DNA from: Tetracentron sinense
Lineage: Eukaryota > Streptophyta > Magnoliopsida > Trochodendrales > Trochodendraceae
Direction: 5' to 3'
Assembly: GCA_015143295.1 (NCBI GenBank)
Contig: CM026562.1
Coordinates: 12,490,041 to 12,554,040 of the forward strand
Length of the DNA: 64,000 bases
The notes under the pieces are model-generated. The model did not search any database. It saw only the letters and a list, made by a program, of their open reading frames with translations, and was not told where the DNA came from. Positions 1,587-61,883 of the stretch are shown in pieces (positions within the stretch are counted from its first letter, which is position 1; every line of letters starts with the position of its first letter). A program made the position numbers and the translations under genes.

Positions 1587-2640
1587 TGAAATCCCTTAGT
1601 TCAATGTATCCTTTGACCTAGAGGGAGGGGTGAATAGGTCTACTTAAGAATTTCAACCAATTTTAATTTTATCCAATCACACTCATTCAATCACACATGA
1701 ACACGCAAAACTTTTTGCGTGGAAAACCCTTCTGGGAAAAACCATGGGACCTAGTCCAGAATAAATTTCACTGTGAAAAGATTTCAACAGTACAAGACTT
1801 GAATCTTACTCAACCGGATACGACACACCGTTCCTCGGTATCGATTTCTCAGCTTCCAAACCACAAACTCAGCTTGTTCGATCTCTGCAACAGCAACTCC
1901 GGTTCCTCTCTTGCCAATATTTCTCAAAGCGATCTACCACGATCTCCGAAGATCGATCCCCGTCCTTGTTGGCTTTGGCTCTAGCTAACCAACACCCACA
2001 ACAGAGCACAATATGGGTTTTATAGTTTTGAGAAGCTCTAGAGTGATCTCATCAATGATTGAGGATCAATCAATGCAAGTTCATAATGATATGAATGTAA
2101 AACTTGTAACTCTAGAGAATGGTTAATGGAGGATGAGTGGAATATTTTCCAGAGTTTAGGGGAACTCTAGAATGAGCCTAAAGTGGTCTCAATGCTCTCC
2201 AAAAAGTGTCCTTCATGGACAATGGGTGTTGCATTAAATAGAAGAGCAACCCTATGAAGTTAGAAGTTGCCAAAAACAATTTAGAAACAAAAGTCCATAT
2301 CAGAGTCGACCCTGGGAGTACTTTGGGTCAACCCAATAGTGTACTTTGGTCGACCTAAGTGTCTTCCAGGATCGACCCTGGATTTTTTTATCTTCTGTTA
2401 TTTTTCACCATACAAAATCTCAATGCTTTCTAGAGCCATTTTCTATGATTTTGGGCATTTCCATGAGAACTATTTTTGGTCTTCTAGGTCTCACTTACCA
2501 TCCTAAAACTTGAGCCATTCTTGGATGATGAATCTTCATGCTTTATCATGGCATCTTTTTCGCTTTTCATCGAACCGGATGATGACCTAAGAAGTACTAT
2601 ACCCACTTCTGGATTCGGAATTTTGCCAATACAAAAACAT
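1587..2640 (-). repeat. Ty1/copia 5' LTR (partial), minus orientation
   Basis: The sequence beside the primer-binding site has the typical inner edge of this copia LTR family: a CCTAGAGGGAGGGGTGAATAG-like motif near 1617-1637, also seen near the equivalent edge of the LTRs at 18099, 23189 and 45166. A palindrome cluster with GGTCGACC/GTCGACC cores lies at 2301-2371, about 715 bp from the inner edge. This matches the spacing in the other three copia LTRs (about 720-830 bp). The outer edge is not clear: similarity to an LTR fades near 2640, and unrelated promoter-like sequence follows. Confidence 0.62.
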
Positions 2641-3534
2641 GACTTTACAATTTCTAATTGGAATAGGATTAGAATTAGATTCTAATCTATTTATACCCCC
2701 AAAACCCCAAAACGTGGGGGTAATCATTCATTGAAGATCTCCCCTCCAAAACCATGAGCTTAGAGAGAGTTCTCTCCAGCTAATTTTCGTGAGCCCCTTG
2801 GGAGATTCCAAGTTGTTTGAAGCTTAGGGTTTTGAACCGTAAGGTTTTGTATGACAGAAAGTCTACTCCTCCAACAATCTTCTTCTCTTTGTTTCTTCAA
2901 GACCAAGTAAAGATTCAAAAGCTTCGTAGGGATAGGGAAGAAAAAGGATCGAGCTTCGAGTATTTCTTCGAGAAATCTCTACAAAGAGTTCTAACGGTTC
3001 AAGTTGATTTTGTGCTTCACCGGTGAACATCATTCACCGAGGTAATTCTCTAAGCATGTAGCTAGTATTATTTGCTTTCTATGGTATAAAGATCTTCAAG
3101 ATACAGTTTTCCGCATAAATTTTTTATCTGGATTCTCTTCAGTGAGTTCTTCACTAAACATAGATTTTGGATTCACCGGATTTTTTTTAGATTCCTTATT
3201 GAACGTTTACACACTTCTCCAAACACTGTGTACATGACCCAACGTACCTAGAGTTATTCCTGTGTTTTGGACATTACTAATTGGCACATCAAAATCATAT
3301 AGATAGATTGTTGAGAAAATGCTAACATCTCAGGTCTAATGATAATTTGTCGAATGGATAACCCTAATACAATCTAAAGTGTATTCCATTGGTATCCACA
3401 ATGACCCTGTTCAGTATTATTTACTTACTACATATCCTCACATGTTAGTCAAGAGTCAATACTCTCTGTGAATGAGATTCATTACACTATCTTATAGAGC
3501 TATACATGCGCAAGCCATGATGAAGTACAATGCA
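2641..3534. other. Unassigned AT-rich sequence, possibly a further LTR fragment
   Basis: No gene is recognised here. On the plus strand a TATA-like motif (CTATTTATA) lies near 2687-2695. It is followed by C-rich and then purine-rich sequence that resembles the transcribed leader of a plant LTR. A 69-codon open frame at 2817-3026 has no recognisable features. Bases up to 3534 are the genomic flank of the Tekay insertion. It could be a truncated copia LTR of another family; confidence is low. Confidence 0.3.
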
Positions 3535-3748
3535 CAATCTGTAGAGCCCCGAACTTTTGACATTTATGCATGACCCTTCGTAGCCATTTTTCCTTTAAAG
3601 TAATGCAATTAATAAATAAGGAAGAAATTTGAAATTCCGAAACGTCAGAAATGTTTTTTTTCGGAGTACGAACCCAACGCAAGTTGAATCGTCGAAATCG
3701 GATGAACGAGTCAAAAGTTATGGCCAAAACAGTTTGGACCTGCAGACC

Positions 3749-3933
3749 ACCGATCGCTCGGTCCATGGAGCGATCGATCGGTCTAAAACCGATCGCTCGG
3801 AGGCTATCGACTGGTCGAGATTTTACTATGGGGAAATTTTCCAAAGAGTGAAATTTCAACCGATCACTCGGTTATGAAACCGATCGATCGGTAGGCAACC
3901 GATCGATCGGTCATTAACACCGATCGCTCGGTC
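3749..3933. repeat. Palindrome cassette A of the 5' LTR (CCGATCGATCGG type)
   Basis: Seven short palindromes are packed into about 185 bp: three or more perfect CCGATCGATCGG (or CGATCGATCGG) copies, and several CCGATCGCTCGG variants with one off-centre mismatch. Spacers are 6 to 60 bp. The cluster ends about 60 bp upstream of the TATA box. The same cluster recurs in the 3' LTR (11252-11436), in the solo LTR at 24355 (24568-24752) and, inverted, near 27581-27712 and 58799-58985. Confidence 0.85.
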
Positions 3934-3992
3934 CTCGCGTTTTACAGAATTTTCACTAAGGGCATTTTCGGCATTCGGGTGTTATACCCTTT

Positions 3993-4000
3993 CTTATATA
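3993..4000 (+). promoter_or_regulatory. TATA box of the Tekay LTR
   Basis: CTTATATAGG lies about 455 bp inside the LTR, downstream of the palindrome cassette and upstream of a leader-like stretch. That is the usual U3/R placement. The 3' LTR has the same site 7503 bp further on. Confidence 0.7.
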
Positions 4001-4855
4001 GGATTGCCCGAGCCTTTAGGGCTCATTCTCAACCCTTAGAAGATTTGGGAGATTAGAAGAGAGGAGAAAGGGTTCCTAAATCTAGGGTTTCCATTTTGAA
4101 GAGGAATCAAAGGGGTTTGAGACCCTAGATCATCCTCAAGCACGTTTTCCTTCAAGATCTCGGCTCAAGCTCGTGTGGAGCTCGTGTTCCAAGCTAGGGC
4201 AGCAACTCACGGTCGTTTTGGAAAGGGGGATTTCTTCCCCACTTGATCAAGGTCGGTACTTCTTGCTACCCTCCTAGTCATAGTTCTTCTTTTCCTTTAT
4301 TTTTCTTTGTGTTCCTTTATACATCCATGTATTATGAGATGGGTTGTGAATGGTGAACGGTGAATGATGAATGGAGATGAATGTGGGCGATTGGATGCCG
4401 TGTGTATTGATGTGATGGATGAACGGGGAGGGCATTGTACCCATAATAAACATACATATGTGATGTGAGTAAAACCCACCTAGAAAAGCATGTTGTAGGG
4501 TTAATAAATAATGAACACACTATGTTTGATGAGATGCCAAGGTGAATAAAATGAGTGATAAATTAAGGGAATACATGTTTAATTATTCATGAAATTGTTA
4601 GGGCATATGATAGTGTGTTTCTTACATTTCTCAAAATGTGCGACTTATTACTTGTTCAAATCGTGATATGCTATGCTTTGTAAATTACCCAAATTGTCAT
4701 ATTTAATTCCAAATGCAAGTATGCACACGATCTCACGAGCACGCATGCATGACATGGATTACCGACGTTTTTCAAGAATGGGATTTAGAGGTGGGGCATA
4801 TCCTACGATATGTATTACCTCGCTTTTGGCAAGGAAAAGTCAATCATGCATTATC

Positions 4856-5093
4856 ATAAGAAGGGTCTCCCTTCCCTCGCAAGTACATACATATCATAAG
4901 AAGGGTTTCCCTTCCCTCGCAAGTACATCTCACAAGGACATCTCACAAGTGAAAGGACATGACATGAGCATTTAGGAAGAAGGGTCTCCCTTCCCTCACA
5001 AGTAGATTACTTTTCCGAACAAGCAAGCATGATACATGACATGACAAGCATGGGCATTTAGGAAGAAGGGTCTCCCTTCCCTCACAAGTAGTT
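4856..5093 (+). repeat. Tandem cassette B of the 5' LTR (AAGGGTCTCCCTT type)
   Basis: Four spaced copies of AGAAGGGTCTCCCTTCCCTC occur here, each with the interrupted palindrome AAGGG-TCT-CCCTT followed by CAAGTA. The same cassette appears at 12359-12596 and, inverted, in LTRs at 26361-26655, 38366-38456, 44953-45055 and 60031-60167. Two family members carry a different repeat in this position (25723-25957 and 57503-57755). Confidence 0.8.
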
Positions 5094-5862
5094 TACTTTT
5101 CCAAGCAAGCATGACAAGACATGGCATGACATGCATGATACGATAAGATAAGACAAACATGACAAGTTTTCAAGCAAGGAAATGGTATTTTCAGTCAAGT
5201 CAAGTCAAGTGCACGGTGTTTTCAAGGGTTTTATCGGCTTTTACGAATTCAAGCATGATTATATACTCCTTTACTTTATTGTCATGATATGAATTATTCC
5301 TGCTTTATATGCTTGAATTGTTTCCTGCTTTATATATGTGAAATGCTTCCTACTTCCTATACTGCTATGGTTTTGCTATGACTATTGGTTAGTATTTAGT
5401 ACCCGCTGAGTATTCCATGCTCAGCCGTACTTCTTATGTCGGCAGGTTCTGAGGGAGCTGCTGCTCCATTTGATGTCTGTACTCCTAGCCCTTGGGTGGA
5501 GGAGGAGTACGTCGAGGAACCTTTGGAGGAACCTCCCGTAGAGGGTTATCAGTAGGTGGTGTTAGATTCTAAGTGGTTTAGCTGTGGGTGAGCATGAGTG
5601 ATTATATCCATGTATTTTGGCGGGCATGTCCGCACTTTCTTTGTTTTGTTTTCTTTTGTATTAAACTTGGACCATGTGTATATATACTTAGAGGTTTGTT
5701 AGACTTCCGTTGTGTTTTATAGTTATGCTTCCGCTGTTATCCTCTATTGTATATGTTCTGTGAGTTTTGCAGGTTGGTTCGTCAAGCAAGTCATGTAAGT
5801 AATGATTAAGTCGTCCAAGATTCACTCTAACTCCTAGGGTGGGTTTGGGGTCGCGACAGAAG

Positions 5863-5880
5863 TGGTATCAGAGCCTAGGC
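5863..5880 (+). other. Primer-binding site, initiator-Met tRNA type
   Basis: TGGTATCAGAGCC lies four bases inside the 5' LTR. It is complementary to the 3' end of initiator methionine tRNA, the primer used by Tekay and most plant chromoviruses. Confidence 0.9.
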
Positions 5881-6218
5881 TTTAGGTCTTTAGGGTCACT
5901 TAGAATCTTATACCACGGCTTGACAAGAGCATATGTTAGGAAACAAGTTAGGAAGGAAGTGAGTCGGGAACGAGTCTGGTTCCAAGTGTAAGACTAAACC
6001 TTAGTCTTAGTCTAAAATGGTTGCTTTAACCAAGTACGGTCCTAGGTACGCTAGAACACTAAAGTATAAGTATAATGTGATGAATACTTTGATGACTTGA
6101 TGTGCTGTATATTAATATTATACAACTAATACAGATTGAATTATTGTGAAATGACATTGAAATAAACTGTGGTTTCAAGTTAGACTCATGTGGTGTTATT
6201 ATTCTCAGGACTTTAGTC

Positions 6219-7604
6219 ATGAGACGGAACACACGGGGTCGTGGGCCACATACCAGAGCTTCCTCTTCTTCACAGGGTGAGGATGAGCAGCCTGACCTCT
6301 CCCAGGTCTTAGGCTCTATTGCTGAGACACTCGCCATACTGGCGGCTCGGCAAGCTATACCATCGTCGGCGGCACCTACTCCACCGCCCGCAGCTCCAGT
6401 ACATCGTACAGCTGGAGTTGAGGCATTCAGGAGATTGAGGCCTCCATCCTTCCACGGGAGTGTGGACCCTCTTACTGCGGAGGCTTGGATCCTCCAGGTT
6501 GAGAAGATATTTGCGGTGCTCTCTCCTACAGAGGAAGAGAAAGTGGCATGGGCAGTTTTTATGCTAGAGGGCGAAGCCCACCATTGGTGGTTGTCCGCAT
6601 TGAGGACACGGGACTTGACCATGCAAGGTCAACCGTGGACTTGGGAGGAGTTCAAAGATACTTTTTACAAGAAGTATTTTCCGATCGGTGCACGGGAAAA
6701 GAAAGAGAGAGAATTCATCAACCTTGAGCAAGGTTCGATGTCTGTGGCCGCTTATGAGGCCAAGTTCTCAGAATTGTCGAGATTCGCGCCTCATATGGTT
6801 GCTACTGAGGCAATGAAGGCGAGAAGATTTGAGCAAGGGCTCAAGGATGTTATTATGGAGAAGGTTTCCGTTTTCAGGCATGCTACCTACCCTGAAGTGG
6901 TAGACAAGGCCTTATTGGTCGAGGCCAATTCCGAAGCGGTGTCTAAGAAGAGAGAGTTGGCGAGAGGCCAAGCCAATAGTTCAGCACCTCCAGAGAGGCG
7001 GGCCCGGACTGGTCCTTATCAGTATACATGGCCAGCACCACAGACGAGGCCGACTTATGCTCCTCCAGCACCCCGGCAGTACGTGCCACAGGCACCTCGA
7101 CCTCAGGCTCTTCCGGCCCCACGGCCAGTTACCCCTCAGGCAACGAGGTATACACCACCTCCGGTCCCTCCAGCCTATACATATGAGGTCTGCACTTCAT
7201 GCGGCAAAAGGCATCCGGCAGGAGATTGCCGAAGAGCATCTGGTGGATGTTATCATTGCGGTCGCCAGGGCCACATGATCAGGGATTGCCCTAGCCGGCA
7301 TTTACCAGGCCAGTCTCAGGGTAGTAGGCCCCCGACACGCCCAGCAGGATCATACCAGGCGTCATCTCAGACTACCCGGTCTACACCTCAGTCTCGCCAG
7401 GCGAACCAGGGGCGTGTATTTGCTTTGACAGAGGGTGATGCACTTGCATCTGATGATGTGGTGCAAGGTACGCGTTTGGAGTTATTTTCTTTATTCGTGA
7501 TTGTTATGTTATGCTATATTTTTGTGTACGTACTCGGCATGTTCTATATGTATATAAACCTACACGTATACGTTGTTGATGCATGGATTAACTCCGCTAG
7601 TTAA
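6219..7604 (+). CDS. gag: Gag of the Tekay element
   Basis: This is the structural Gag protein, which forms the virus-like particle and packages element RNA. The open frame starts with [10 protein letters not shown]. Residues about 85-125 hold the retrotransposon Gag core ([21 protein letters not shown]). A proline/alanine-rich linker follows. A CCHC zinc knuckle ([14 protein letters not shown]) lies at about residues 343-356. The last ~45 residues of the open frame lie in a distinctly A/T-rich stretch and do not resemble Gag. Pol begins in another frame just downstream. The core is typical of chromovirus Gag, and the copy looks whole. Confidence 0.88.
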
Positions 7605-10938: not shown

Positions 10939-11030
10939 ATTTTGTATAGGTTTTGTACATGTAGCTTATAATATTGTTTGATTCTGTAATGCATGTCTCG
11001 TCCAAATTTCGAGGACGAAATTTTTTTGTA

Positions 11031-11042
11031 AGGGGGGAAGGA
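11031..11042 (+). other. Polypurine tract of the Tekay element
   Basis: AGGGGGGAAGGA ends directly at the 3' LTR and would prime plus-strand DNA synthesis. The same tract, inverted, abuts the LTR that ends at 61883. Confidence 0.88.
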
Positions 11043-13361
11043 TGTAGAGCCCCGAACTTTTGACATTTATGCATGACCCTTCGTAGCCATTTTTCCTTTA
11101 AAGTAATGCAATTAATAAATAAGGAAGAAATTGGAAATTTCGAAACGTCAGAAATGTTTGTTTTCGGAGTACGAACCCAACGCAAGTTGAATCGTCGAAA
11201 TCGGATGAACGAGTCAAAAGTTATGGCCAAAACAGTTTGGACCTGCAGACCACCGATCGCTCGGTCCATGGAGCGATCGATCGGTCTAAAACCGATCGCT
11301 CGGAGGCTATCGACTGGTCGAGATTTTACTATGGGGAAATTTTCCAGAGAGTGAAATTTCAACCGATCGCTCGGTTATGAAACCGATCGATCGGTAGGCA
11401 ACCGATCGATCGGTCATTAACACCGATCGCTCGGTCCTCGCGTTTTACAGAATTTTCACTAAGGGCATTTTCGGCATTCGGGTGTTATACCCTTTCTTAT
11501 ATAGGATTGCCCGAGCCTTTAGGGCTCATTCTCAACCCTTAGAAGATTTGGGAGATTAGAAGAGAGGAGAAAGGGTTCCTAAATCTAGGGTTTCCATTTT
11601 GAAGAGGAATCAAAGGGGTTTGAGACCCTAGATCATCCTCAAGCACGTTTTCCTTCAAGATCTCGGCTCAAGCTCGTGTGGAGCTCGTGTTCCAAGCTAG
11701 GGCAGCAACTCACGGTCGTTTTGGAAAGGGGGATTTCTTCCCCACTTGATCAAGGTCGGTACTTCTTGCTACCCTCCTAGTCATAGTTCTTCTTTTCCTT
11801 TATTTTTCTTTGTGTTCCTTTATACATCCATGTATTATGAGATGGGTTGTGAATGGTGAACGGTGAATGATGAATGGAGATGAATGTGGGCGATTGGATG
11901 CCGTGTGTATTGATGTGATGGATGAACGGGGAGGGCATTGTACCCATAATAAACATACATATGTGATGTGAGTAAAACCCACCTAGAAAAGCATGTTGTA
12001 GGGTTAATAAATAATGAACACACTATGTTTGATGAGATGCCAAGGTGAATAAAATGAGTGATAAATTAAGGGAATACATGTTTAATTATTCATGAAATTG
12101 TTAGGGCATATGATAGTGTGTTTCTTACATTTCTCAAAATGTGCGACTTATTACTTGTTCAAATCGTGATATGCTATGCTTTGTAAATTACCCAAATTGT
12201 CATATTTAATTCCAAATGCAAGTATGCACACGATCTCACGAGCACGCATGCATGACATGGATTACCGACGTTTTTCAAGAATGGGATTTAGAGGTGGGGC
12301 ATATCCTACGATATGTATTACCTCGCTTTTGGCAAGGAAAAGTCAATCATGCATTATCATAAGAAGGGTCTCCCTTCCCTCGCAAGTACATACATATCAT
12401 AAGAAGGGTTTCCCTTCCCTCGCAAGTACATCTCACAAGGACATCTCACAAGTGAAAGGACATGACATGAGCATTTAGGAAGAAGGGTCTCCCTTCCCTC
12501 ACAAGTAGATTACTTTTCCGAACAAGCAAGCATGATACATGACATGACAAGCATGGGCATTTAGGAAGAAGGGTCTCCCTTCCCTCACAAGTAGTTTACT
12601 TTTCCAAGCAAGCATGACAAGACATGGCATGACATGCATGATACGATAAGATAAGACAAACATGACAAGTTTTCAAGCAAGGAAATGGTATTTTCAGTCA
12701 AGTCAAGTCAAGTGCACGGTGTTTTCAAGGGTTTTATCGGCTTTTACGAATTCAAGCATGATTATATACTCCTTTACTTTATTGTCATGATATGAATTAT
12801 TCCTGCTTTATATGCTTGAATTGTTTCCTGCTTTATATATGTGAAATGCTTCCTACTTCCTATACTGCTATGGTTTTGCTATGACTATTGGTTAGTATTT
12901 AGTACCCGCTGAGTATTCCATGCTCAGCCGTACTTCTTATGTCGGCAGGTTCTGAGGGAGCTGCTGCTCCATTTGATGTCTGTACTCCTAGCCCTTGGGT
13001 GGAGGAGGAGTACGTCGAGGAACCTTTGGAGGAACCTCCCGTAGAGGGTTATCAGTAGGTGGTGTTAGATTCTAAGTGGTTTAGCTGTGGGTGAGCATGA
13101 GTGATTATATCCATGTATTTTGGCGGGCATGTCCGCACTTTCTTTGTTTTGTTTTCTTTTGTATTAAACTTGGACCATGTGTATATATACTTAGAGGTTT
13201 GTTAGACTTCCGTTGTGTTTTATAGTTATGCTTCCGCTGTTATCCTCTATTGTATATGTTCTGTGAGTTTTGCAGGTTGGTTCGTCAAGCAAGTCATGTA
13301 AGTAATGATTAAGTCGTCCAAGATTCACTCTAACTCCTAGGGTGGGTTTGGGGTCGCGACA
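11043..13361 (+). repeat. 3' LTR of the Tekay element
   Basis: This is the same 2319 bp as the 5' LTR, offset by 7503, with about five differences seen by eye and no length change. It contains cassette A at 11252-11436 and cassette B at 12359-12596. The downstream flank begins with the target duplication CAATC at 13362-13366. Confidence 0.95.
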
Positions 13362-23188: not shown

Positions 23189-24354
23189 TGTTGCCCAGTA
23201 AATGGACCCTAGAGGAGGGGTGATTAGGGTCAATGGCACAAAAATTTTACCTAGGTCTATTTTTGCGGAATTAATGAATTTGAGGCAATGCACTAATCAG
23301 ATATATATATATATATATGAAAGAAAACCAAAGATTTAAGGAGATACAAACAGAAAGTTTGTTCACAAGATTCAACAACTTGTCTACGTCCTCGCCTTTC
23401 AGCTTCGAGCTTTAAGGGTTCACACGATTTTACTCGCAAAAGCTTCTTAACCGAGTGAAGTTCAAACCTCAACAATTCCCTTCATAGGCTGGGACACCAC
23501 CTTTGATGCAAGAGAACACCCTCTCTTGACTTCTTGAATCTTTCTGGCTTCTCGGAAAAGAATACATAGATTCTTGATTTTCTTCAAAGCAATGAAGTTT
23601 GTTGGATTTGAATCCAATTACAGAGCTCCTTAATGAGATAGATAAAAATAAAATAACTCTTCTAAAAATCTCTCAAATGATTGAGACTTAAAAGTTCAAA
23701 TAGGAATATTTAGGAATTTGGGGATTTTCACTGTATGATTGATGAGAATTGAATGCTATGATCAATGTAAGCTTAATGGAGAATCAGTAGTAGTTCAATG
23801 TTCATAAATGAACTCAATTTATAGTGCTTAGATGATTATAGCCATTAGTATAGCATTTAATGCAGTTTTAGTTGTTAAAAAACTAGCCGTTGTGAGTTTC
23901 CCGCAGGCAGACGTCAACGTTTAGCATTGAGACATCGACGTCTACAACTCAAAAAATTTTCATTATATACTGTAATTTTCACGACCCAAAACCCACCATA
24001 GGAGTTAGAGTGAACTTTGGACGACTAATCATGACTTACATGACTTGCTAGACAAACCATCCAGCAAAAACCCACAGAGCATATACAAAGACGATATAAA
24101 CAGCGGAAACATACTTAAACATAGCACAGCAGAAGACTTAACCAAACCTCTATGTATATACAAGTGATCCAAGTTATACAAAAGACACACAAAAGAAAGT
24201 GCGGACATGCCCACCAAAATACATAAATCTAACTCTCAAGCTCACCCACAGCTATCCACTCAGAATCTACCACCACCTAATAATAACCCTCACCCTGAGG
24301 TTCCTCCACCGGCTCCTCAACGTACTCCTCCTCCACCCATGGGCCAGGAGCACA

Positions 24355-25957
24355 TGTAGCACCCCGGACCTTTTTCATCCTTAATGAATAGCACCTTCGT
24401 AGCTAATTGGCCGTTTTTGTAGTCTAATTAATAAATAAGGGAGAAATCGGAAATTCTGAAATGTCAGAAATGTTCGTTTTCGAAAGACGGATCCAACGCA
24501 AGTTGAATCATCGAAATCCGACGACCGAGTCAAAAGATATGGTCAAAACAGTCCAGACATACAGAGCACCGATCGCTCGGTCCAGTCAGAGATCGATCGG
24601 TCCATAACCGATCGATCGGTAGCTATCGTACGGTCAGAAATTTTGTATGGGGAAATTTTCCAGAGAGTGAGTTTTTGACCGGTCGATCGGTCATAAACAC
24701 CGATCACTCGGTAGGCAACCGATCGATCGGTCATAACCACCGATCGCTCGGTCTTCGTGTTTTTCAGAATTTTCATTAAGGGCTTTTTCATCTTTTGGGG
24801 GTTAAACCCTTTCTCCTTAAGGCTTGCCCGAGCCTTAGGGCATCATTCACTATACTTAGAGAGATTTGGGAGATAAGAGAGAAGAGAAAAGGGTTTCCTA
24901 AACCTAGTTTGCTTTTGGAGAAGAAATCAAAGGGGTGAAGACCCTAGATCGTCCCCAAGCATGTTTTCTTCAAGATTTCAACTCAAGCTCGGGTGGGGTG
25001 CATTCTCAAAGCTAGGGCAGCCCTCACTCACGTTTTTGAAAGGGATTTCTTCCCCAACTCAAGCTTCTTTCAAGCAAAGGCTTCATCTTTCAAGTTGGAG
25101 CTTCAATCAAGGTCCCTACTAAGGATCAAGCCTTGATTCAAGGTTAGTACACCCTACTAACTTCCCCTAACAATAACCTAGTTTTTCTATGAACTATATG
25201 ATTTTGCTACTACGTATTTCTCCCTTATGAAATGCATCATATTCACTAAATATAAACAAGGTGAAGAAAATGGTGTGGATGCATGGATGAGAGGTTGATT
25301 GAGGCGATGGGATGCCGAATGTATGGTGTATGAATGTGTGGTGTGAAGAATGGAAAATGGAGGATGGGCATTTTACCAATAATGAACATACCTTGATTTT
25401 TGGATGGAAAGTAGGCACTAAAAAGAAGAAGATGAACCATTAAGGAACCTTGCATGTTATGTGTTTGACAAAATGCCTAAACTAGGAATAAATGACATAA
25501 ATGAAGAAAATGAAAGTAGGCCTTATGCATGTGTTCTTATGAATGATGAACTATTCAAATGCCACGTAGATTACTCAAATTCCTATATGGTTGTACTGTG
25601 GATTGAATTGCTATACACTACTCTTCATGTCATATTGTCATCATGATATTACAAGTGCTACACACACCACACATGCATGCATGAAACCGGGTTTTCCAAG
25701 ATTGTATTTGTATATGATGAATCAAGAACATGACAAGGAGGTTGGTAGCCCAAGGAAGGGTGCTAGCCTCTGGCTCACAAGAGAAATGGAACAAGAACAT
25801 GACAAGGAGGTTGGTAGCCCAAGGAAGGGTGCTAGCCTCTGTCTCACAAGAGAAATGGAACAAGAACATGACAAGGAGGTTGGTAGCCCAAGGAAGGGTG
25901 CTAGCCTCTGGCTCACAAGAGAAATGGAACAAGGACATGACAAGGAGGTTGGTAGCA
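24355..25957 (+). mobile_element. Short Tekay-related solo LTR nested in an opposite-strand Tekay LTR
   Basis: A 1603-bp insertion with TG..CA ends (TGTAGCACCCC and GGTTGGTAGCA) and the exact 5-bp duplication GCACA (24350-24354 and 25958-25962). Its first ~1.3 kb align with the Tekay LTR, including cassette A of the CCGATCGATCGG type (24568-24752). The 3' block with the GTCGGCAGG marker is absent. Instead it ends in a 69-bp tandem repeat that runs right to the terminus. Either this is a distinct short subfamily or its 3' end was remodelled before insertion. Confidence 0.8.
25723..25957. repeat. 69-bp tandem repeat, 3.4 copies
   Basis: The unit starts CAAGAACATGACAAGGAGG at 25723, 25792, 25861 and 25930, exactly 69 bp apart with few differences. 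Because 69 is a multiple of three, several long repetitive open frames appear on both strands; they are not genes. Within the unit, GAGGTTGGTAGC and GCTAGCCTC form an imperfect inverted pair. The repeat occupies the position of cassette B in this LTR family. Confidence 0.9.
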
Positions 25958-26655: not shown

Positions 26656-29600
26656 TTTATGCATGGTAGTTTTGTTCTTGCCAAAAGCGAGGTAAAACAT
26701 ATCGTAAGATATGTCCCACCTCTAATTCTCGTTCTTGAAAACCTCGGTAAATTCATGTCATGCATGTCGTGCTCGTGGAAGCGTGTACATACTTGCATTT
26801 AAATTTAAATATAACATTTGGAGAGTTAACAATACATAGAACATCAATCATTTGAGCAATTCAATATTCATGTAATTTAGGGAAAACAAAAAGGCACACT
26901 ATCTTAGGTCCTAGCAATTTCCGTAAGTAATTAAGCATACATTTCCTTAATTTACAATTCATTTCTTTTACCTTGGCATTTCATCAAACATGGTGAGTAA
27001 ATTATTTGTTAAGCCTATCACATGCTTTTCTAGGTAGGTTCATATTCACAACATGCTTGTATGTTTATTATCGGTGCAATGCCCTTCCTCATTTCATACA
27101 TCACATCATCCACATGGCATCCATTCGCCAACATCCATCTCCATTCACCATTCACACAACCCATCTCATAACACATATATAGATGAAGGAAAAATGAAGG
27201 ATAATAGGAATAAGGGAAGAAAAATAAAGAACTATAACTAGGAGGGTAGCAAAAGGTACCGACCTTGACAAATGAGGGAAGGAACTCTCCTCCAAAACGT
27301 GCGTGTAGATGCTGCCCTAGCTTGAGGAGAGTGCTCCAGGAGTGCTTGAACCAGAATCTTGAAGCAATCCAAGCTTGAGGTGATATAGGGTTCACAAACT
27401 CTTTGATTTCTTCTCAAAAATCAAACCCTAGGTTTAGAAATCTCCTTCTCTTCTCTCTTCCTCTCTAATATCTTCTAAGTGTGGTAAATGAGCCCTAAAG
27501 GCTCGGGAAAGCCTTAAGAGGAAAGAGTGAAATACCAAAAGACGAAAACACCCTTACTGAAATTTTTGCAAAACACGGGGAACCGAGCGATCGGTGCTCT
27601 TGACCGGGCGATCGGTCAAAAACATGCTCTCTGGAATTTTTCCCCATACAAAATTTTTGACCAGTCGATAGATACCGATCGATCGGTTTTGCGCTGAATG
27701 GACCGAGTGATCGGTTGCTCTGCAAACTTGATCCTAAGCCCACTTTCTCACCCATTTCACTACTTAAACTGATCCTAGTTCTCTTTTGACATTTCCTAAA
27801 CATGACGAGGGTCCCTTTAAAGCTTGTATGGGTGTTGAAATAATTTATTAACTTAATTATAACATTCTTGACACAATTTTCTCAAAGTTCCAAATTTCCA
27901 TTTCATGAATTTGAGATTACATAGGCTACATGCCTTGGCACACATACCAAGACATGTACGAAAAGTTCCGGGGTTCTACAGTAATACTCAAACATCGACG
28001 TTTAAAGGATTTCTTTCTCAAACATCGACGTCTGCAAAGACTGAAAAATTTCCTGGGTTATTGTAAACACCAAACATCGACGTTTGAAGGACTTTCCTTC
28101 ACAGACGTCGACGTCAACACTATATTCTTATCAAATACTCTATTTTAAAAGACCTTTAAGATGAGAATAAATTCATAAGCCTTTCGGATTTCCATTATCA
28201 TGTTTTTGGTCAACTTTTAAGATATTGTAAGGCTTTGGATTGTTCTTCAAATAAGTCAAGGCTTCCTAAGGTCAATCTAAGCTTTTGTGCTTTTGAACTT
28301 TCAATCAAAAGAGGACTTTTTACATAAGTCCTAGACTCTTAAAATGAAACCATAAAACCTTCTTGAGTTTTCACGTTTCTTGTCTTGATCTTGAATGATT
28401 TTCTTCTATTGGCTTCATGATCCAACTTGAATATTTTGGTAGCTTCTTAAATCTTATTTTAAGTTGAATTGCAATTGGGCTCTTGTACCCTTTTGTCTTG
28501 ATTTTCTTTTTCATCAAATGATATTGGCTTTGATTTGTGCTATCTCTTTGTCATGTTGAATCTTTCTTCAAAGATGAACTAATGTTCCTTAAATATGAAA
28601 TTGACATACACTTTATAGAACAATGAGTACTAAAATGCTCATTTTATTATTTTCTCATAATCAAAATTATTAAGGGTATTATTAGGGGTACACAGGGATG
28701 TAACCTTTAGGCTAACAATCTCCCCCTTTTTGATGATAACATAATAAGGAAATGACTTGGGATTAAGCTCTCCCTCAATATATGATTTTAAATAAAGTAT
28801 TTGAGGTGGCTCCCCCTAAACATATGCATTCATATAAATTTGATCAAAGTTTAACTTATGTGCATATTTTAGACATTTCAAGAGATATTTATTTTCAGAA
28901 GAACATTAGACAAAACAAGATTAATCATAAGAAAACCAAGAGAAGTTCCACAAAGAAATGAACCAAGAGAAGTTCCACAAAGAAATTGAATCAAGAAAAG
29001 TTCCATGATCTTCTCTTCAATATTTCATCATTCAAGAATTCATTTAAATATTTATTTAGCCATATTTTAGTGTTTTCCAATCAAGTCATGTTCATATTCA
29101 TTTCATTTTTCTCCCTCTTGACATCATAAAAAATTAAGAGAATATAAACAAGTAATAATGAGACTATAAAAGATAATATATATATCAAAAAAATTAAGTA
29201 CAAGTATTTGTATTACTCTAATAAAAATTACAAACAAAACAGTCAATATGTCTTTCCATTTTGCACATCATACAAAAAAAATTCTAAAACAGTCTTCAGT
29301 TTAAATTTTCTCTCTTCCTCTTGTGATCAGGCTTTGATATGCGATTCTTCTTCTTGGAAGGTGCGGCCTTGGACAAGTCCTTAGAGTCAGAAGAAGTACT
29401 ATCATTGGAAATCACATGCTCTAGGGGCTTCTCCTAAGGTTCTGCTGGAATCTCCACATCTATAGGGACAGGAATGTGAGTTAATTTGTTCCGGATACTC
29501 ATCATCTCAATGGCTACCTGAGTGACTCTTGAAGTCATTTCACCGATGATTGGAGCCTGAGCATCCAATAAAGTGGACATCTGATGGAGGTAGGAGGCTT

Positions 29601-31917: not shown

Positions 31918-32141
31918 GGCGCTACTTCAAGTAGCGCCTCTAATCGGATATTTCCGAAACTGGAGGCCGCAATGAACAGTAGGGCGGTAAAACAGGGACA
32001 AAAGGGTAATTTACTGGGGCGTTGTTTCAAGTAGCGTCCCTAGTTAGGATATTCTTAAACACAATGTCGACGGGGTTGATCCATCTGAGGAGAGGGGTAA
32101 TTTTGTAAATATAGGGGCGCTATTTGAAGTAGCGCCCCTAT
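31918..32141. repeat. Palindrome cassette of the Tat-type LTR (GGCGCTA..TAGCGCC)
   Basis: Three inverted repeats occur in 225 bp. 31918-31938 is GGCGCTACTT-C-AAGTAGCGCC, perfect 10-bp arms. 32017-32040 is a version with mismatches. 32111-32141 has perfect 12-bp arms ATAGGGGCGCTA around a 7-base loop. In the LTR's orientation the cluster ends about 15-20 bp upstream of the TATA box. Confidence 0.88.
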
Positions 32142-33471: not shown

Positions 33472-33691
33472 AAAACCTCGGGTGCCCGGTCGACCGGCTA
33501 GGAGGGGCGGTCGACCGGCCCTGGGAAAAACCTTACTGTTAACCCATTTTGGCAAAAACCTTGACAGTAGGTCGACCAGCCTTGATGGGTGGTCGACCGG
33601 CCTTCCCAAAACACCTACTATTAGCCCATTTTTGGGCTTTTTCATAACAGCCGATCAACCGGCCTTGGAGGACGGTCGACTGGGATTCACC
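33472..33691. repeat. Palindrome cassette A, GGTCGACCGGCC type
   Basis: Six copies of a GGTCGACCGGC motif or a close variant, each built on the palindrome GGTCGACC with a GGCC extension, occur in 220 bp. They sit in the same LTR position where other Tekay copies carry CCGATCGATCGG or the 26-bp repeat. Confidence 0.85.
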
Positions 33692-34177: not shown

Positions 34178-36080
34178 GGTAAGCACCCAATTTTACACCC
34201 CACCTGACTATAGTTAAACCCTTTTTTAACTATGGTTACCCCCTGTCAAGTCCTCACAAACCTAAGTAAACCTTTAGTAGCCTTAGGATTCACCCTAAGT
34301 CAAACCCTAGGAAGCCCTAGAACCAAAAACCCTAAACCCCAGGTGACCCTAGCCGAAACCCTAGTCTAGCCCTGGAGCCATTAGGGCTTGAACCATAGAA
34401 TCCAAGGCCCCTAAGGCCTAAACCTATGGCATGGGCCCATAAGGCCCAAAAACCTTAGAACAAACTCCCATAACCCGTATGTGCAGGGCCCAGCCCAATT
34501 CAAAACAAACCTCATAATGTCGGTAGAAGGTCTGCCGACATTATAAAAAGGCTTGTTTTCATATTGTCGGTAGACCTTCTACCGACAATATACAAGTCCC
34601 GAGTTTCAGTCTACGAACACCTGTGGACACTTAACCCTCACCTCGGTCTCTCCCTTCAAGCCTCTTAGTCGACCTCCCCTTGGTCCAACCACCTCTTCCC
34701 CCTTCTCCTTAATCCCTTGTAGGTCCTTAGATGTGTTCCTATAAAACCCAACCCTCCTCTAGTGCAAATGGTTGACAGTTTTATTGAAGGTGAACCTCTA
34801 CTACGAAACCCCCATCATCTCAGCCCTCCAATCCCCTGGTTTGGATCTAAGGACCACCTTGGACCCCTCCAGTCCTCCCAGCTACTATAGACCATCACCG
34901 GAGCACCACCACCGCGATTGTAGGTCATCACCCTTTCGGCTGAAACAGAGCATCAGGGTAGGGTGTTCCCTACCCACTTTCTCCCTCTTGTGCAATCAAT
35001 GCGAGCCCCTGGTCATTTCCAGGGGACTTTATTTTGGCTTTTGGTAGAATTTCAGTTCACAACCAAACCTCTACAGGGTGTTCACCCAGGCAAAAACACA
35101 GCTCAAAAACACTATTATTAATGTTGGTAATCCAATTACCGATATTATCTTTGTTTTTATTCTGGGCTTTTGCAGGGGCCCAGGCCTGGTAGGAGGCCAC
35201 TTTAGGCCCTGCTTAGCCCCCTGGGCCCACTTTGGACCTCACTAGACCCCTAACCAAGGTTAAATACACCTCCGGTTAATATTTAACCGTGGTTAAGTAC
35301 CCCTTAACCCTTAATTGCAATTAGTAATCCTAATCGTAGTTAACTTCGGTTACGGCCTACTGGGCCTAAAAACCAAGTCTAACGGACTTACTTTTGACCT
35401 ACCGGGCCTCCCCTTAGCCTACCAAGCTACACATCATATCCCCTTAACTGTGGTTAGCAATCCTAACCATAGTTAATTTCGGCCTAATCCCGGTTAGCAA
35501 CCCTAACCTGGGCCGGACTCCATCCTAGTCTACCGGACTACCCCCCCTAAGCCCACCGGGCTTGAATACCATGCACTTGACCTCTCTCGGTCAACCAAAC
35601 CCTAGTCTACCAGACTAGTCCATGTTACCCACCCCTGGTGCACACACACATGCCCCTAGCCTCAGCACAGGCTCACGTGCCAGAACTACGCTCGGTCTGA
35701 TCTCACCCTGTGAGTACATAAGCAACCCAACCCGGGTTCGACCCCAGTTAGCTTTTCCTTTCTTGGATTAGTGTTAACTTAAACATTTTGACATTCTAAT
35801 CAAGATTAACTTTATTTGGCTTAAACCTGGGGAGTACGGAACCATTGTAAAGACTGAAGCCTCGGGGTGCCTAACACCTTCCCCGGACTTAACCGACCCC
35901 TTACCTTGATCTCACTCACAGACCAAGACCTTATCCAAACCCGGGGGACTTATCCCTTCTGAATGAATAGGTAGCGACTCTTAAATGGTAAAACCCTTTC
36001 ACAACCGTGAGGGTACATAGGTAATTCCACCATCATTCATCCTTTTTGTGAGTGGGAGGGAAGAAATTCCAGCGCCCACA
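34178..36080 (+). repeat. 5' LTR of an Ogre/Tat element
   Basis: About 1903 bp. It starts near TAAGCACCCAATTTT (compare TGTAAGCACCCC in the LTR at 30576) and ends GCGCCCACA just before a tRNA-Arg-type primer-binding site. TATA box CCTATAAAACCC at about 34738-34749. Two strong inverted repeats lie at 34514-34591, and a third, TTGGTAATCCAATTACC-like, near 35117-35147. The left edge truncates the copia interior. Confidence 0.78.
34514..34591. repeat. Palindrome pair upstream of the Ogre LTR TATA box
   Basis: 34514-34544 is an inverted repeat with the near-perfect outer arm ATAATGTCGG. 34561-34591 is a perfect one, arms ATATTGTCGGTAGA around CCT. Both share the core GTCGGTAGA..TCTACCGAC. They end about 150 bp upstream of the TATA box. 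Confidence 0.88.
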
Positions 36081-37581: not shown

Positions 37582-40169
37582 TGTCGCGACCCAGTACCCA
37601 CCCTAGGAGTTAGAGTGAACTTTGGACGACTAATCATGGCTTACATGACTTGCTTGACAAACCAACCTTCAAAAACCCACAGAGCATATACAATAGAGGA
37701 TATAAACAGCGGAAACATACTCTAACATAGCACAACGGAAGTCTAAACAAACCTCTATGTATATACGAATCCAAGTTTACACAAAAGGAATCCAAAAGAA
37801 AGTGCGGACAGACCCGCCAAAATACATGGATAAAATCACTCATGCTCACCCACAGCTAATCCACTCAGAATCTAACACCACCTACTGATAACCCTCTACG
37901 GGAGGTTCCTCAAAAGGCTCCTCGACGTACTCCTCTTCCACCCATGGACCAGGAGCACAAACATCAAATGGAGCAGCAGCTCCCTCAGAACCTGCCGACA
38001 TAAGAAGTACGGCTGAGCATGGAATACTCAACGGGTACCAAATACTAACCAATAGTCATAGCATAAAAATGGCAATACATAAATCAGGAGCAATTCATAT
38101 ATGTTAGACAGAAACAATTCATATCATACAAGGAAGTAAAGCAATTTATAATCATGCTTGTATTTCGTAGAAAGCCGATAAAACCTCTTGAAATCATTGT
38201 GCTCTTGACTTGACTTGAAATATCATTTTCGTACTTGAAAGCTTGTCTTGTCTATCTTGCTTGATTCTTGTATGTCATGTCATGTCATGCGTGCTTGCTT
38301 GTAATCATGTAACTTGTGAGATAAACTTGTAAGGTGTACTTGTGAGATGCGCTTGTGAGATGCCTTGAGAGGGAAGGAAGACCCTTCTTTATGCAATGCA
38401 CTTGCGAGGGAAGGGAGACCCTTCTTCATGATATGCACTTGTGAGTGAGGGGAGACCCCTCGTGTAATGTTGGTTCTTGTCTTCTTGTGAAAAGCGAGGT
38501 AAAACATACCATAGGATATGTCCCACCTCTAACCATGTTCTTGAAAACCTCGATAAATCATGTCATGCATGCCGTGCTCGTGGGAACCGTGTACATACTT
38601 GCATTTAAATTTAAATATGACATTTGGGTAATTTCACGATACATATAACATCAATGATTGAGCAATGTAATATTCATATCATTTAGGGAAAGCAAGAAAA
38701 CACACTATCATAGGCCCTAGCAATATTCAGAATTTATTAGGCATGCATTTCCTAAATTACAACTCACTTTATTCACCTTGGCATTCCATCAAACATGTTA
38801 TGTTCATTATCGATTTACCCTACAACATGTTTTTCTAGATGGGTTTTTCTCAAATCATACATGTATGTTCATTATTGGAACAATGCCCTCCCTATTATAA
38901 TCATCACAACACAACCATTGGCATCCAGTTGCCCATTCCATCTCCATTCGCCATTCACAACCATCCATCTCATAACACGGGTAATAAAGGAAAATAAAGA
39001 GAAATAAAGGGGAAAGAGGAACTATAACTAGGAGGGTAGTAAGAAGTACCGACCTTGAAGAAATGAGGAAGAAATCCCCTTTCCAAAACGACTGTGTAGC
39101 CGCTGCCCTAGCTTGGAGAACGCTCTCCACGAGTGCTTGAGCCGAGATCTTGGAGAAAATTCGGACTGGAAGTGATCTAAGGTCTCAAAACCCCTTTGAT
39201 TTCTCTCCAAAATGGAAACCCTAGGTTTAGGAATCGCCCTTTCTTCTCTTCTTATCTCCCAATCTCTCTAAGTGTCGAAATGAAGCCCTAAAGGCTCGGG
39301 TTAAACTCTTAAGGTAAGAGTGAACCGACCAAAGACCTTAATACCCTTACTGAAGTTTCTGCAAACACACGAATGCCGAATTCGTTGAGCTATGAACAGT
39401 GCTGAACATGTTGTGCTGTGAACAGTGCCGAACACGTTGTGCTGTGAACAGTGCCGAACACGTTGTGCTGTGAACAGTGCCGAACACGTTGTGCTGTGAA
39501 CAATGCCAAACACGTTGTGCTGTGAACAGTGCCGAACACGTTGTGCTGTGAACAGTGCCGAACACGTTGTGCTGTGAACAGTGCTAAACACGTTGTCCGT
39601 TGTGTTACGTACAACGTGCCCGACGTGCTACATAACGTACCCGTAGTAACTGTACAATGTACCTGTTGTAGCTGCACAACGTACCCGTTGTTGCTGTACA
39701 ACGTACCCGTTGTTGTTGTACAACGTACCCGTTGTTGTTATACAACGTACCCGTCGTTGTTGCACAACGCACCCGTTGTTGCTGCACAACGTACCCGTTG
39801 TTGCTGTACAACGTACCCGTCGTTGCTGTACAACGGATGCACAACGTATACGTTATCAGAGCTCAAGCTACGTTCTCAGAGTACGTTGTCTATGCCTTAT
39901 CAGAGCACGACCTAGCGCCTTCCGAGCTACGTCCTTAGCGCATAACCGAGCTACGATTGCCTGCAGACCCAGACTGTTTTGGCCATATCTTTTGACTCGT
40001 TCGTCCGATTTTGACGATTCAACTTGCATTGGGTTCGTACTTCAAAAAGGAACATTTCTGACATTTCAGAATTTCCAATTTCCTCCTTATTTATTAATTA
40101 TACCTCTTTAAAGGCAAAATGACAACGAAAGTGCCATGTATTAAGCATGAAAAAGTCTAGGGCTCTACA
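37582..40169 (-). mobile_element. Tekay solo LTR inside the Ogre element (26-bp-repeat cassette)
   Basis: 2588 bp, minus orientation, bounded by the exact 5-bp duplication TGTAC (37577-37581 and 40170-40174). On the minus strand it starts TGTAGAGCCCTAGAC and ends GGTCGCGACA. It carries cassette B at 38366-38456 and, in the cassette A position, a long 26-bp tandem repeat plus palindromic ACAACG..CGTTGT units (39395-39955). This accounts for its extra length. Confidence 0.9.
39395..39955. repeat. Cassette A, 26-bp CACGTTGTG repeat plus ACAACG..CGTTGT units
   Basis: About eight tandem 26-bp units GTGCCGAACACGTTGTGCTG(TGAACA) occur at 39395-39600. About ten units of ACAACGTACCCGTTGTTGCT type follow, to about 39850, each an ACAACG..CGTTGT inverted repeat. 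CTACGTTCTCAGAG/GTACGTTGTC variants continue to 39955. Long open frames across it are products of repetition. Confidence 0.85.
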
Positions 40170-57140: not shown

Positions 57141-57502
57141 CTAAAAACCTTAAATTTTGTAGTGTACGGCTGAGCATGGAATACTCAGCGGGTACTAAAT
57201 ACTAACCAACAGTCATAGTATACAGATAGCATACATAAAGTAGGAAACAAATTGCATATATAGAACAGGAACAATTTGTATCATACAAGGAAGTAAAGCA
57301 ATTTATATTCATGCTTGCATTCAGAAAAACTGATAAAACCCTTGCAAACATCGTGCACTTGACTTGACTTGAAATACCCTTTGCGTGATTGGGAACTTGT
57401 TAACCGAGTCATGCTTGTCATGCTTGCATCATGCGTGCCATGTCATGTCATGCGTGTCATGAGAGTATCATGCTTGCTTGTTCATAATTTAAACATGTTC
57501 AC

Positions 57503-58798: not shown

Positions 58799-58985
58799 TA
58801 CCGAGCGATCGGTGTTAATGACCGATCGGTCGGTTGCCTACCGATCGATCAGTTTCATAACCGAGCGATCGGTTAAAATTTCACTCTTTGGAAAATTTCC
58901 CCATACAAAAATCTTGACCAGTCGATAGCCTCCGAGCGATCGGTTTTGGACCGATCGATCGCTCCATGGACCGAGCGATCGGTTG
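58799..58985. repeat. Palindrome cassette A of the cut Tekay LTR
   Basis: Eight CGATCGGT-type palindromes, inverted relative to the 5' LTR of the whole element and nearly collinear with it (CCGAGCGATCGG, CCGATCGATCGC and similar). Confidence 0.85.
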
Positions 58986-59238
58986 CCTGCAGGTCCAGAC
59001 TGTTTTGGCCATATCTTTTGACTCGCTCGTCGGATTTTGACGATTCAACTTGCGTTGGGTTCGTACTTCGAAAAGGAATATTTCTGATGTTTCGAAATTT
59101 CCAATTTCTTCCTTATTTATTAATTATACCTCTTTAAAGGCAAAATGGCAACGAAAGTGTCATGCATTAAATGTGAAAATGTCCGAGGCTCTACATTCCA
59201 TGTATGAAAACGGCATCTAGACTATAGTAGATCCACCA

Positions 59239-61883
59239 TGTCGCGACCCAAAACCCACCCTAGGAGTTAGAGTGAACTTTGGACGACTAATCATGACTTG
59301 CTTGACAACCAACCTGCAAAAACCCACAGAGCATATACAATAGAGGATATAAACAGCGGAAACATACTCTAGCATAACACAGCGGAAGTCTAAACAAACC
59401 TCTATGTATATACGAATCCAAGTTTACACAAAGGAATCCAAAAGAAAGTGCGGACAGACCCGCCAAAATACATGAATGTATATCTCTCATCTCACCCACA
59501 GCTAATCCACTCAGAATCTAACACCACCTATTGATAACCCTCTACGGGAGGTTCCTTCAAAGGCTCCTCGACGTACTCCTCTTCCACCCATGGACCAGGA
59601 GCACAAACATCAAATGGGGCAGCAGCTCCCTCAAAACCTGTCGACATAAGAAGTATGGCTGAGCATGGAATACTCAGCGGGTACCAAATACTAACCAATA
59701 GTCATAGCATAAAAATGGCAATAGATAAATCAGGAGCAATTCATATATGTTAGACGGAAACAATTCATATCATACAAGCAAGTAAAGCAATTTATAATCA
59801 TGCTTGTATTTCGTAGAAAGCCGATAAAACCTCTTGAAAACATCGTGCACTTGACTTGGCTTGAAATATCTTTTCGTACTTGAAAGCTTGTCGTGTTTGT
59901 CTTACTTGATCTTGTCGAGCGTGTCGTACGTGTCATGTCATGCATGTCATGCGTGCTTGCTTGTGATCATGTAACTTGCGAGATACACTTATGAGATATC
60001 CTTGTGAGATGCACTTGAGAGATGCCTTGAGAGGGAAGGGAGACCCTTCTTTATGCGATGCACTTGCGAGGGAAGGGAGACCCTTCTTCATGATATGTAT
60101 GTACTTGCGAGGGAAGGGAGGCCCTTCTTCATGATATGCACTTGTGAGTGAGGGGAGACCCCTCGTGGAATGTTGGTTCTTGTTTTCTTGTGAAAAGCAA
60201 GGTAAAACATATCGTAGGATATGTCCCACCTCTAACCATGTTCTTGAAAACCTCGATAAATCATGTCATGCATGCCGTGCTCGTGGGAACCGTGTACATA
60301 CTTGCATTTAAATTTAAATATGACATTTGGGTAATTTCACAACACATATAGCATCAATGATTGAGCAATGTAATATTCATATAATTTAGGGAAAGCAAGA
60401 AACACACTATCATAGGCCCTAGCAATGTTCATAATTTATTAGGCATGCATTTCCTAATTTACAACTCATTTTATTCACCTTGGCATTTCATCAAACATGG
60501 TGTGTTCATTATTCATTATTCATTTAAACCTAAATCATGCTTTTCTAGGTGAGTTTACTCACATCATAAAGGTGTGTTTATTATGGATACAATGCCCTCC
60601 CCATTTTAATCATCACAACACAACCCTTGGCATCCAATCGCCCATTCCATCTCCATTCACCATTCACAACCATCCATCTCATAGCACATGTGTGAATGAA
60701 AGAAAATCAAAAGAAATAAATGGAAAAAAGGAACTATTACTAGGAGGGTAGTAAGAAGTACCGACCATGAAGAAATGAGGAAGAAACCCCTTCCAAAAAC
60801 GACCGTGAGGTGCTGCCCTAGCTTGGGGAACGCTCCCCACGAGTGCTTGAGCCGTGATCTTGGAGAAAAACCAGACTTGAAGTGATCTAGGGTCTCAAAA
60901 CCCATTTGATTCTTCTCCAAAAGCAAAACCCTAGCTTAGGAAACCCTTTCTCCTCTCTTCTAATCCCCCAAATCTTCTAAGTGTTGAGAATGAGCCCTAA
61001 AGGCTCGGGTTAAACTCTTAAGGTAAGAGTGAACCGACCAAAAGACCATAATACCCTTACTGAAATTTTTACAAAAACGCGAGTACCGAGCACGTTGTGC
61101 TATGAATAGTGCCAAACATGTTGTGCTGTGAATAAAGCCGAACACGTTGTGCTGTGAATAGTGCCGAACACGTTGTGCTGTGAATAGTGCCGAACACGTT
61201 GTGCTGTGAATAGTGCTGAACACGTTGTGCTATGAATAGTGCCGAACACGTTGTGCTGTGAACAGTGCCGAACACGTTGTGCTGTGAATGGTGCTAAACA
61301 CGTTGTGCTGTGAATACTGCTGAACACGTTGTGCTGTGAATAGTACCAAACACGTTGTGCTGTGAATAGTGCCGAACATGTTGTGCTGTGAACAGTGCCG
61401 AACACGTTGTCACGTTGTCTTATGTACAACGTGCCCGTCGTGAGCTGTACAACGTACACGTTGTCTGCTGCACGACGGATGCACAACGTATATGTTATCT
61501 GCTGCACGACGGATGCACAACGTATACGTTATCTGAGTACGTTGTCTGTGCCTTATCAGAGCACGTTGTCAGAGCACGTCCTTAGTGCCTTCCGAGCTAC
61601 GTCCTTAGTGCCTTCCGAGCTACGTCCTTAGTGCCTTCCGAGCTACGTCCTTAGTGCCTTCTGAGCTACGATTGCCTGCAGGTCCAGACTGTTTTGGCCA
61701 TAACTTTTGACTCGTTCGTCCGATTTTGATGATTCAACTTGCGTTGGGTTCGTAATTTCTGACGAACATTTCTGACGTTTCGGAATTTCCAATTTCTTCC
61801 TTATTTATTAATTATACCTATTTAAAGGCAAAATGACAACGAAAGTGTCATGCATTAAATGTGAAAAGGTCCGGGGCTCTACA
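59239..61883 (-). repeat. 3' LTR of a second Tekay element
   Basis: 2645 bp, minus orientation. It starts TGTAGAGCCCCGGACC (61883) and ends GGTCGCGACA (59239). The polypurine tract GTAAGGGGGGAGGA (minus) lies at 61884-61897, so element interior follows to the right. The flank CACCA (59234-59238) is one side of the target duplication; the other side is outside the window. The extra length relative to 2319 bp comes from the cassette A repeat at 61084-61672. Confidence 0.9.
61084..61672. repeat. Cassette A of the second Tekay element: 26-bp, palindromic and 23-bp repeats
   Basis: About thirteen units of the 26-bp repeat GTGCCGAACACGTTGTGCTG(TGAATA) occur at 61084-61420. ACAACGTATACGTTAT and GCACGACGGATGC units follow, to about 61575. 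About four copies of a 23-bp unit, TCCTTAGTGCCTTCCGAGCT(ACG), run from about 61577 to 61672. The same class of cassette is in the solo LTR at 37582. Confidence 0.87.

Follow-up and report, generated by a model that had tools for sequence, protein, structure and literature searches.

Within a 64,000-nt stretch of the Tetracentron sinense genome (contig CM026562.1, positions 12,490,041 to 12,554,040; hereafter "the window", to which all counts and comparisons are confined), long terminal repeats (LTRs) of Ty1/copia and Ty3/gypsy retrotransposons carry clusters of short repeated palindromes ("boxes") near their promoters. An intact Ty3/gypsy element (3540-13361, + strand) is flanked on either side by the target site duplication CAATC, and each of its LTRs is 2,319 bp long. 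It gave Pfam matches above cut-off to Retrotrans_gag, RVP_2, RVT_1, RT_RNaseH and Integrase_H2C2; rve reached 22.9 bits, under its cut-off of 32.6, and a weak match to Chromo, the domain that follows the integrase in chromoviruses, at residues 1081-1125 of 1126 (E = 3.4 × 10−4, 20.9 bits) was under its cut-off of 25.1. Six further LTR copies or parts of this chromovirus family lie elsewhere in the window, together with two Tat/Ogre-type LTRs, one distant Tekay-like LTR and four copia LTRs (C1 to C4), of which C2, C3 and C4 are mutually related. The lineage names Tekay (the label of the chromovirus family), Tat and Ogre were assigned in an earlier note on this DNA and are putative here; the scheme behind names such as Tekay is a phylogeny of reverse transcriptase, RNase H and integrase domains (PMC6317226). 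Pfam was run on 22 of the 63 open reading frames (ORFs) of at least 100 amino acids: a copia gag lies at 759-1388 on the minus strand, and no copia reverse transcriptase was found among the 22 ORFs. An Rfam search of the window gave zero matches at gathering scores, and a 160-residue reverse transcriptase query against viral_contigs matched a pattern in 8 stretches, 0 of which were confirmed. Seven chromovirus LTRs (T1 to T7) could be aligned, and they carry one of two kinds of cluster, module A, made of ACCGATCGATCGGT boxes, or module B, made of ACAACG-type arrays.

Palindromic box clusters and associated features of the LTRs in the window (spacings in bp between adjacent boxes)
Feature	Position	Strand	Description
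5' LTR (T1), intact chromovirus element	3540..5858	+	TG...CA ends
3' LTR (T2), same chromovirus element	11043..13361	+	5 differences from 5' LTR
Module A, T1	3749..3932	+	7 boxes, ACCGATCG(A/C)TCGGT type; spacing 20,19,71,20,19,21
TATATAG, core promoter candidate	3995..4001	+	62 bp past last box, both LTRs of intact element
Module A, T2	11252..11435	+	Alignment and score
Module A, diverged LTR copy T6	24568..24752	+	Alignment and score
Module A, shorter, LTR copy T7	27582..27715	minus	Alignment and score
Module A, LTR copy T3	58800..58983	minus	Alignment and score
Module B, T5, at module A site	39374..39944	minus	11 ACAACGnnnnCGTTGT boxes (≤2 mismatches) and 26-bp array
Module B, T4	61082..61670	minus	13 × 26-bp unit, 4 ACAACGnnnnCGTTGT boxes (≤3 mismatches), 23-bp array
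Module C, Tekay-like LTR	33486..33683	minus	6 CCGGTCGACCGG-type boxes; spacing 21,62,21,61,21
Tat-type LTR	31918..32136	minus	3 long GGCGCTACTT.AAGTAGCGCC-type boxes, 98 and 100 bp apart, middle diverged
Ogre/Tat-type LTR	34519..34586	+	2 GTCGGTAGA...TCTACCGAC-type palindromes; spacing 47
Copia C1	2304..2377	minus	4 GGTCGACC-type boxes; spacing 22,22,22
Copia C2	18681..18783	+	4 CCAGTCGACTAG-type boxes; spacing 21,49,21; TATAAAT at 18880
Copia C3, left part	23910..23942	minus	2 boxes; spacing 21; TATAAAT at 23817
Copia C3, right part	27991..28115	minus	4 ACGTCGACGT-type boxes; spacing 31,52,30
Copia C4	45927..46133	minus	6 TTCGTCGACGAA-type boxes; spacing 30,51,31,53,30; TATAAAA at 45826

Position, enrichment and conservation of the boxes

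The boxes lay inside the spans given in the earlier note or at most a few bases outside them, and the layout is common to Ty1/copia and Ty3/gypsy LTRs of the window, as that note had claimed; the module A clusters of T2, T3, T6 and T7 are additions to its list. Its placement of the clusters just upstream of a TATA box held for C2, C3 and C4 (nearest box 96, 86 and 94 bp from the TATA candidate, respectively), for the Tat-type LTR (TATAAAT at 31893-31899, 18 bp from the nearest box) and for T1 and T2. It did not hold for C1, where no clear TATA was seen by eye at the matching site, for five of the seven aligned Tekay LTRs, or for the Ogre-type LTR, in which TATAAAA (34542) lies between both palindromes and a second TATA (34740) follows the boxes by 150 bp. 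Two spans that had been listed as palindrome clusters (39395-39955 and 61084-61672, module B) consist mostly of tandem arrays with regular units of 22, 23 and 26 bp, although they do contain ACAACGnnnnCGTTGT boxes (spacings of 33, 22 [eight times] and 21 bp in T5; 34, 34 and 23 bp in T4). Matches with 4 mismatches were excluded from the box sets (one each in module A of T6 and T7, and a seventh, overlapping match in module C).

Perfect palindromes of at least 8 bp numbered 307 in the window, compared with 250.2 ± 12.5 in 30 dinucleotide shuffles of it. A repeated-palindrome score was computed in 250-bp windows (5-bp arms, loop of 0 to 4, up to 1 mismatch). Its peaks stood at 3 to 10 at 21 loci, whereas none of 12 shuffles gave more than 2. 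Twelve of these peaks fell between an LTR start and its promoter site, stretches that make up 14.8% of the window (binomial P = 9 × 10−6; the assignment was made after the fact, with U3 intervals of our own choosing and an uncertain LTR start for C1). Because homologous copies recur, the 12 peaks represent only five distinct modules (A, B, C, C3 and C4). The remaining nine were located in CACTA-type transposon ends (17651, 56751), downstream of TATA in the Ogre-type LTR (35251), in tandem repeats farther down LTRs (26276, 26526, 57251, 57626) and at 22901 and 40151. Four claimed clusters (copia 2301 [C1], copia 18677 [C2], Tat 31918 and Ogre 34514) were missed by the score because their boxes are few, short or diverged, yet these boxes are still readable in the sequence.

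The boxes were said to be unrelated in sequence between families, which holds only in part, since several clusters have GTCGAC as their core. It occurs 18 times (5.1 ± 2.2 expected from 100 shuffles), with 14 occurrences inside claimed clusters (C1, 2; C2, 3; C3, 1; C4, 2; module C, 5; Tat span, 1), so that one gypsy cluster has it in common with all four copia clusters. CGATCG was found 43 times (3.6 expected), 39 of them in module A copies. The ratio of observed to expected CpG was high in module A (1.5 to 1.9; 1.88 at 3749..3932), C4 (1.90), the right part of C3 (1.81), the Ogre cluster (1.32) and module B (1.2 to 1.3), and lower in the Tat cluster (1.02), module C (0.82), C2 (0.49) and C1 (0.44), with 0.60 for the whole window.

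Column identity was 0.83 to 0.96 within boxes and 0.44 to 0.88 in their flanks (flank values above 0.65 came from C2, C3, Tat and Ogre, which have few copies). Divergence of boxes and spacers between paralogues was computed for module A only. Between T1 and T6, boxes differed at 8 of 98 positions and spacers at 26 of 92 (Fisher P = 0.0003), a box rate about one-third of the spacer rate, with 19 of 106 positions differing in the 5' flank and 39 of 162 in the 3' flank. Boxes were likewise the slower part between T1 and T7 (7/61 versus 25/79; P = 0.005); T1 and T3 differed at 3/98 box and 8/92 spacer positions (P = 0.12), with 41/164 in the 3' flank (P = 8 × 10−7), and T1 and T2 at 1/98 and 1/92. 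Module A boxes have thus changed more slowly than their spacers despite being CpG-rich, a pattern that would fit selection on the boxes while the elements were active. Spacings between adjacent boxes cluster near multiples of 10.1 to 10.5 bp (mean cosine, 0.48 to 0.84) and are near-helical in six of eight modules; compared with random placement, P was <0.05 in five of seven modules at periods of both 10.2 and 10.5 bp. We regard this helical-turn spacing as a lead.

At one homologous LTR site, module A is present in five of the seven aligned chromovirus LTRs and module B in the other two. Sequences on either side of the differing modules remain alike (5' and 3' flanks, respectively, 91 and 79% identical for T3/T4, 92 and 84% for T3/T5, and 87 and 79% for T1/T4); the 5' flank of T7 is not clearly homologous, with 71 of 155 positions identical to T1. 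The replacement of one module by another looks like an exchange of the promoter-proximal segment, undated relative to the flanks.

Relation to known repeat arrays

The earlier note knew of no standard name for this layout, but palindromic boxes upstream of TATA have been published as RM boxes of Sirevirus (Ty1/copia) LTRs (Bousios et al. 2010; PMC2829016). RM boxes are described there as 10 to 20 bp long, present in many copies, element-specific in sequence, clustered in the LTR's upper half a short way before TATA and often lying in CpG islands; at least 8 are reported per element and 3 to 14 per 3' LTR (at least 8 in 11 of 13 published LTRs), and the other Ty1/copia elements in that comparison are reported to lack them. 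The clusters in the window share with them the place before TATA and the palindromic form, and three of the four copia clusters (C2, C3 and C4) stand shortly upstream of TATA as RM clusters do. Unlike RM boxes, the layout here extends to Ty3/gypsy LTRs; C1 to C4 have 4, 4, 6 and 6 LTR boxes (internal domains being outside this count) and the GTCGAC core in place of CGG-CCG, and C1 and C2 are CpG-poor. Absence of CGG-CCG has a precedent in the published RM of Tnd-1 (PMC2829016). The core of the module C boxes, CGGTCGACCG, is identical to an RM reported from a Vitis Sirevirus (PMC2829016), although one such match is no strong evidence alone when 13 published RMs are set against about nine modules. 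A targeted term search of PMC2829016 found no mention of box spacing. The copia part works like a known kind, but we would not file C1 to C4 as proven Sirevirus RM members, because of their 4 to 6 boxes and their GTCGAC core without CGG-CCG.

In maize, Sirevirus palindromes are reported as hotspots of small RNAs with strong secondary structure (PMC5311732 and PMC10760457, citing a 2016 study), whereas maize Ty3 elements are said to generally lack such a structure peak, and the cis-regions of several transposable element families are arrays of sometimes palindromic repeats (PMC10760457). The clusters in the window resemble that maize cis-region (Bousios et al. 2016) in being variable, palindrome-rich parts of the LTR with strong predicted secondary structure; they differ in that they are known from sequence alone, whereas those of maize are small-RNA hotspots. 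No description of palindromic promoter-proximal clusters in plant Ty3/gypsy LTRs was found in the literature searched, outside which subscription papers largely fall. As far as these searches go, the gypsy part is an extension of a known architecture.

Repeated enhancer elements also stand in U3 upstream of TATA in Tnt1/Retrolyc1 and Tto1, where the boxes are few and mostly non-palindromic. The likeness lies in repeated cis elements at that place and in subfamilies set by differing U3 sequences; the number and form of the boxes differ. Dense subterminal repeats are also found in CACTA transposons, where in known cases the transposon's own protein binds them. Those in the window are likewise dense and palindromic, in both ends, but lie at transposon ends rather than LTR promoters. 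The U3 variation of Tnt1/Retrolyc1 is also cited in PMC2829016.

Candidate role of the clusters

The clusters are probably, in our judgement, family-specific promoter-proximal regulatory hubs in U3 that a dimeric host factor would bind. Arrays of palindromic boxes may be recognized as double-stranded DNA by one or a few related dimeric transcription factors of the host, phasing on the helix would align the bound dimers near the core promoter, and the hubs would then act like Sirevirus RM boxes. Boxes are loop-less in six of nine modules, as recognition of dyads in double-stranded DNA expects, and together with box conservation and near-helical spacing this suggests that a dimer-binding regulatory role fits best. 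We infer that protein binds the boxes, that the factor is a dimeric one of the host, that its effect is activation and not repression, and that host silencing or competition between families drives the turnover of modules.

Several results weigh against this role. CACTA-type ends have similar clusters, as does a region past the TATA box of one LTR, and TATATAG is absent from T3 to T7 (five of the seven aligned Tekay LTRs), which have CTTAAG-like letters at the homologous site. Boxes of T1 and T6 compared with the 5' flank gave only P = 0.06, and box-to-box conversion could be another source of their likeness. A helical phase was rejected at 10.2 to 10.5 bp for the Tat-type boxes (98 and 100 bp; P = 0.8) and for the Ogre pair, whose 47 bp is a single distance in the wrong phase; it was weak in C2 (P = 0.06 to 0.10), and in module B, which stood outside the phase test, the 22-bp spacing fits and those of 26 and 34 bp do not. 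With one common shift per module, P ranged from 0.004 to 0.10 depending on the period, in a test that was post hoc, with non-independent distances within modules and with C3 and C4 related to each other.

A different origin of the clusters lies in RNA or single-stranded structure, with U3 hairpins in genomic RNA that would serve the element itself or set off host small RNAs, and with the dyads as a by-product. All eight folded cluster pieces (the set left out Tat and module B) were more stable than their shuffles (z = −2.25 to −10.62; five control pieces, +1.72 to −2.11), the C1 cluster and the Ogre pair each fold as one long hairpin, and the small-RNA hotspots of maize point the same way. We nevertheless consider this explanation quite unlikely: repeated palindromes fold well regardless of role, the two weakest clusters (module C, z = −2.25; C4, z = −2.45) are barely beyond two controls (−2.11 and −1.79), loop-less boxes make poor single hairpins, and pairing in RNA does not predict a near-helical spacing. 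Dyad symmetry reaching beyond the core, with flanks that change from box to box, was rejected as a general feature, since pairing of flanks within boxes exceeded that between boxes in only one of seven sets, C1 (P = 0.042, the minimum for 24 permutations). Neutral turnover, in which unequal exchange and template switching by reverse transcriptase would perfect functionless palindromic tandem repeats in a tolerant U3, is agreeable to the largely regular 22-, 23- and 26-bp arrays of module B and to the repeated palindromes that LTR repeats also carry away from the promoter (35251, 57626, 57251, 26276, 26526). It seems unlikely to us, in that module A boxes were kept while their spacers drifted, whereas a neutral array should retain or drop each unit as a whole, and in that the same position recurs in unrelated families. 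That the clusters are chance groupings picked by eye in repeat-rich DNA might be read from the four claimed clusters that the unbiased score missed, but the scores above those of shuffles and the excess of CGATCG leave this very improbable; for the stronger clusters (A, B, C, C3 and C4) chance is already unlikely.

Beyond regulatory hubs particular to each family, copia and gypsy LTRs might share a promoter grammar of GTCGAC-type dyads at whole helical turns, read by one dimeric host factor, with chromovirus subfamilies exchanging entire modules at a fixed site in the LTR to change factor or escape silencing; we hold this to be possible but doubtful. A convergent function through a dimeric host regulator was the interpretation offered in the earlier note. 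Its observation is largely real for most clusters, though wrongly called nameless, and is confirmed in part; the interpretation is also supported in part, with a dimer-binding role fitting best and convergence not proven because C2, C3 and C4 are related and about nine modules are a small sample. Should the layout hold genome-wide, palindromic promoter hubs would be a general link of plant LTRs to host transcription and not a Sirevirus peculiarity, module exchanges between homologous LTRs would amount to natural promoter-swap experiments, and cores shared by copia and gypsy would permit a search for the host factor. Such hubs may also bear on why small RNAs of maize target these regions.

Nested insertions and other repeats

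A Tekay LTR (23979-27981, minus strand) splits the C3 cluster in two. It is inserted within the palindromes and bordered by GTAAT at either end (by eye), and a partial Tekay LTR on the plus strand, starting at 24354, interrupts it in turn. The location of one Tekay LTR in the C3 palindrome cluster may be compared with an insertion preference for palindromes, termed slight (PMC6911290). The genus Sirevirus is recognized by its reverse transcriptase phylogeny and by several polypurine tract copies upstream of the 3' LTR. In the window, repeated purine tracts precede the C3 and C4 LTRs (by eye, with no count against chance), and matches to GGGGGAGA were found. The Tekay-like LTR that hosts module C runs from 33936 to about 29655 on the minus strand (ends by eye), and a Tat-type solo LTR (30565-32619) is nested in it, with ATACC on both sides (by eye).

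In the Ogre-type LTR, a TAACC..GGTTA palindrome cluster lies at 35251-35500, downstream of the TATA at 34740. CACTA-type ends, whose terminal motif we take to be CACTACAA / TTGTAGTG, begin at 17365 and lie at 56779-57164; they carry palindromic repeats, with an observed to expected CpG ratio of 3.79 at 56779-57006. A match to En/Spm transposase at 52972-53382 is weak and below cut-off. Elsewhere, a 228-bp unit is repeated in tandem about 8.6 times at 20384-22329, with self-matches extending to 22690.

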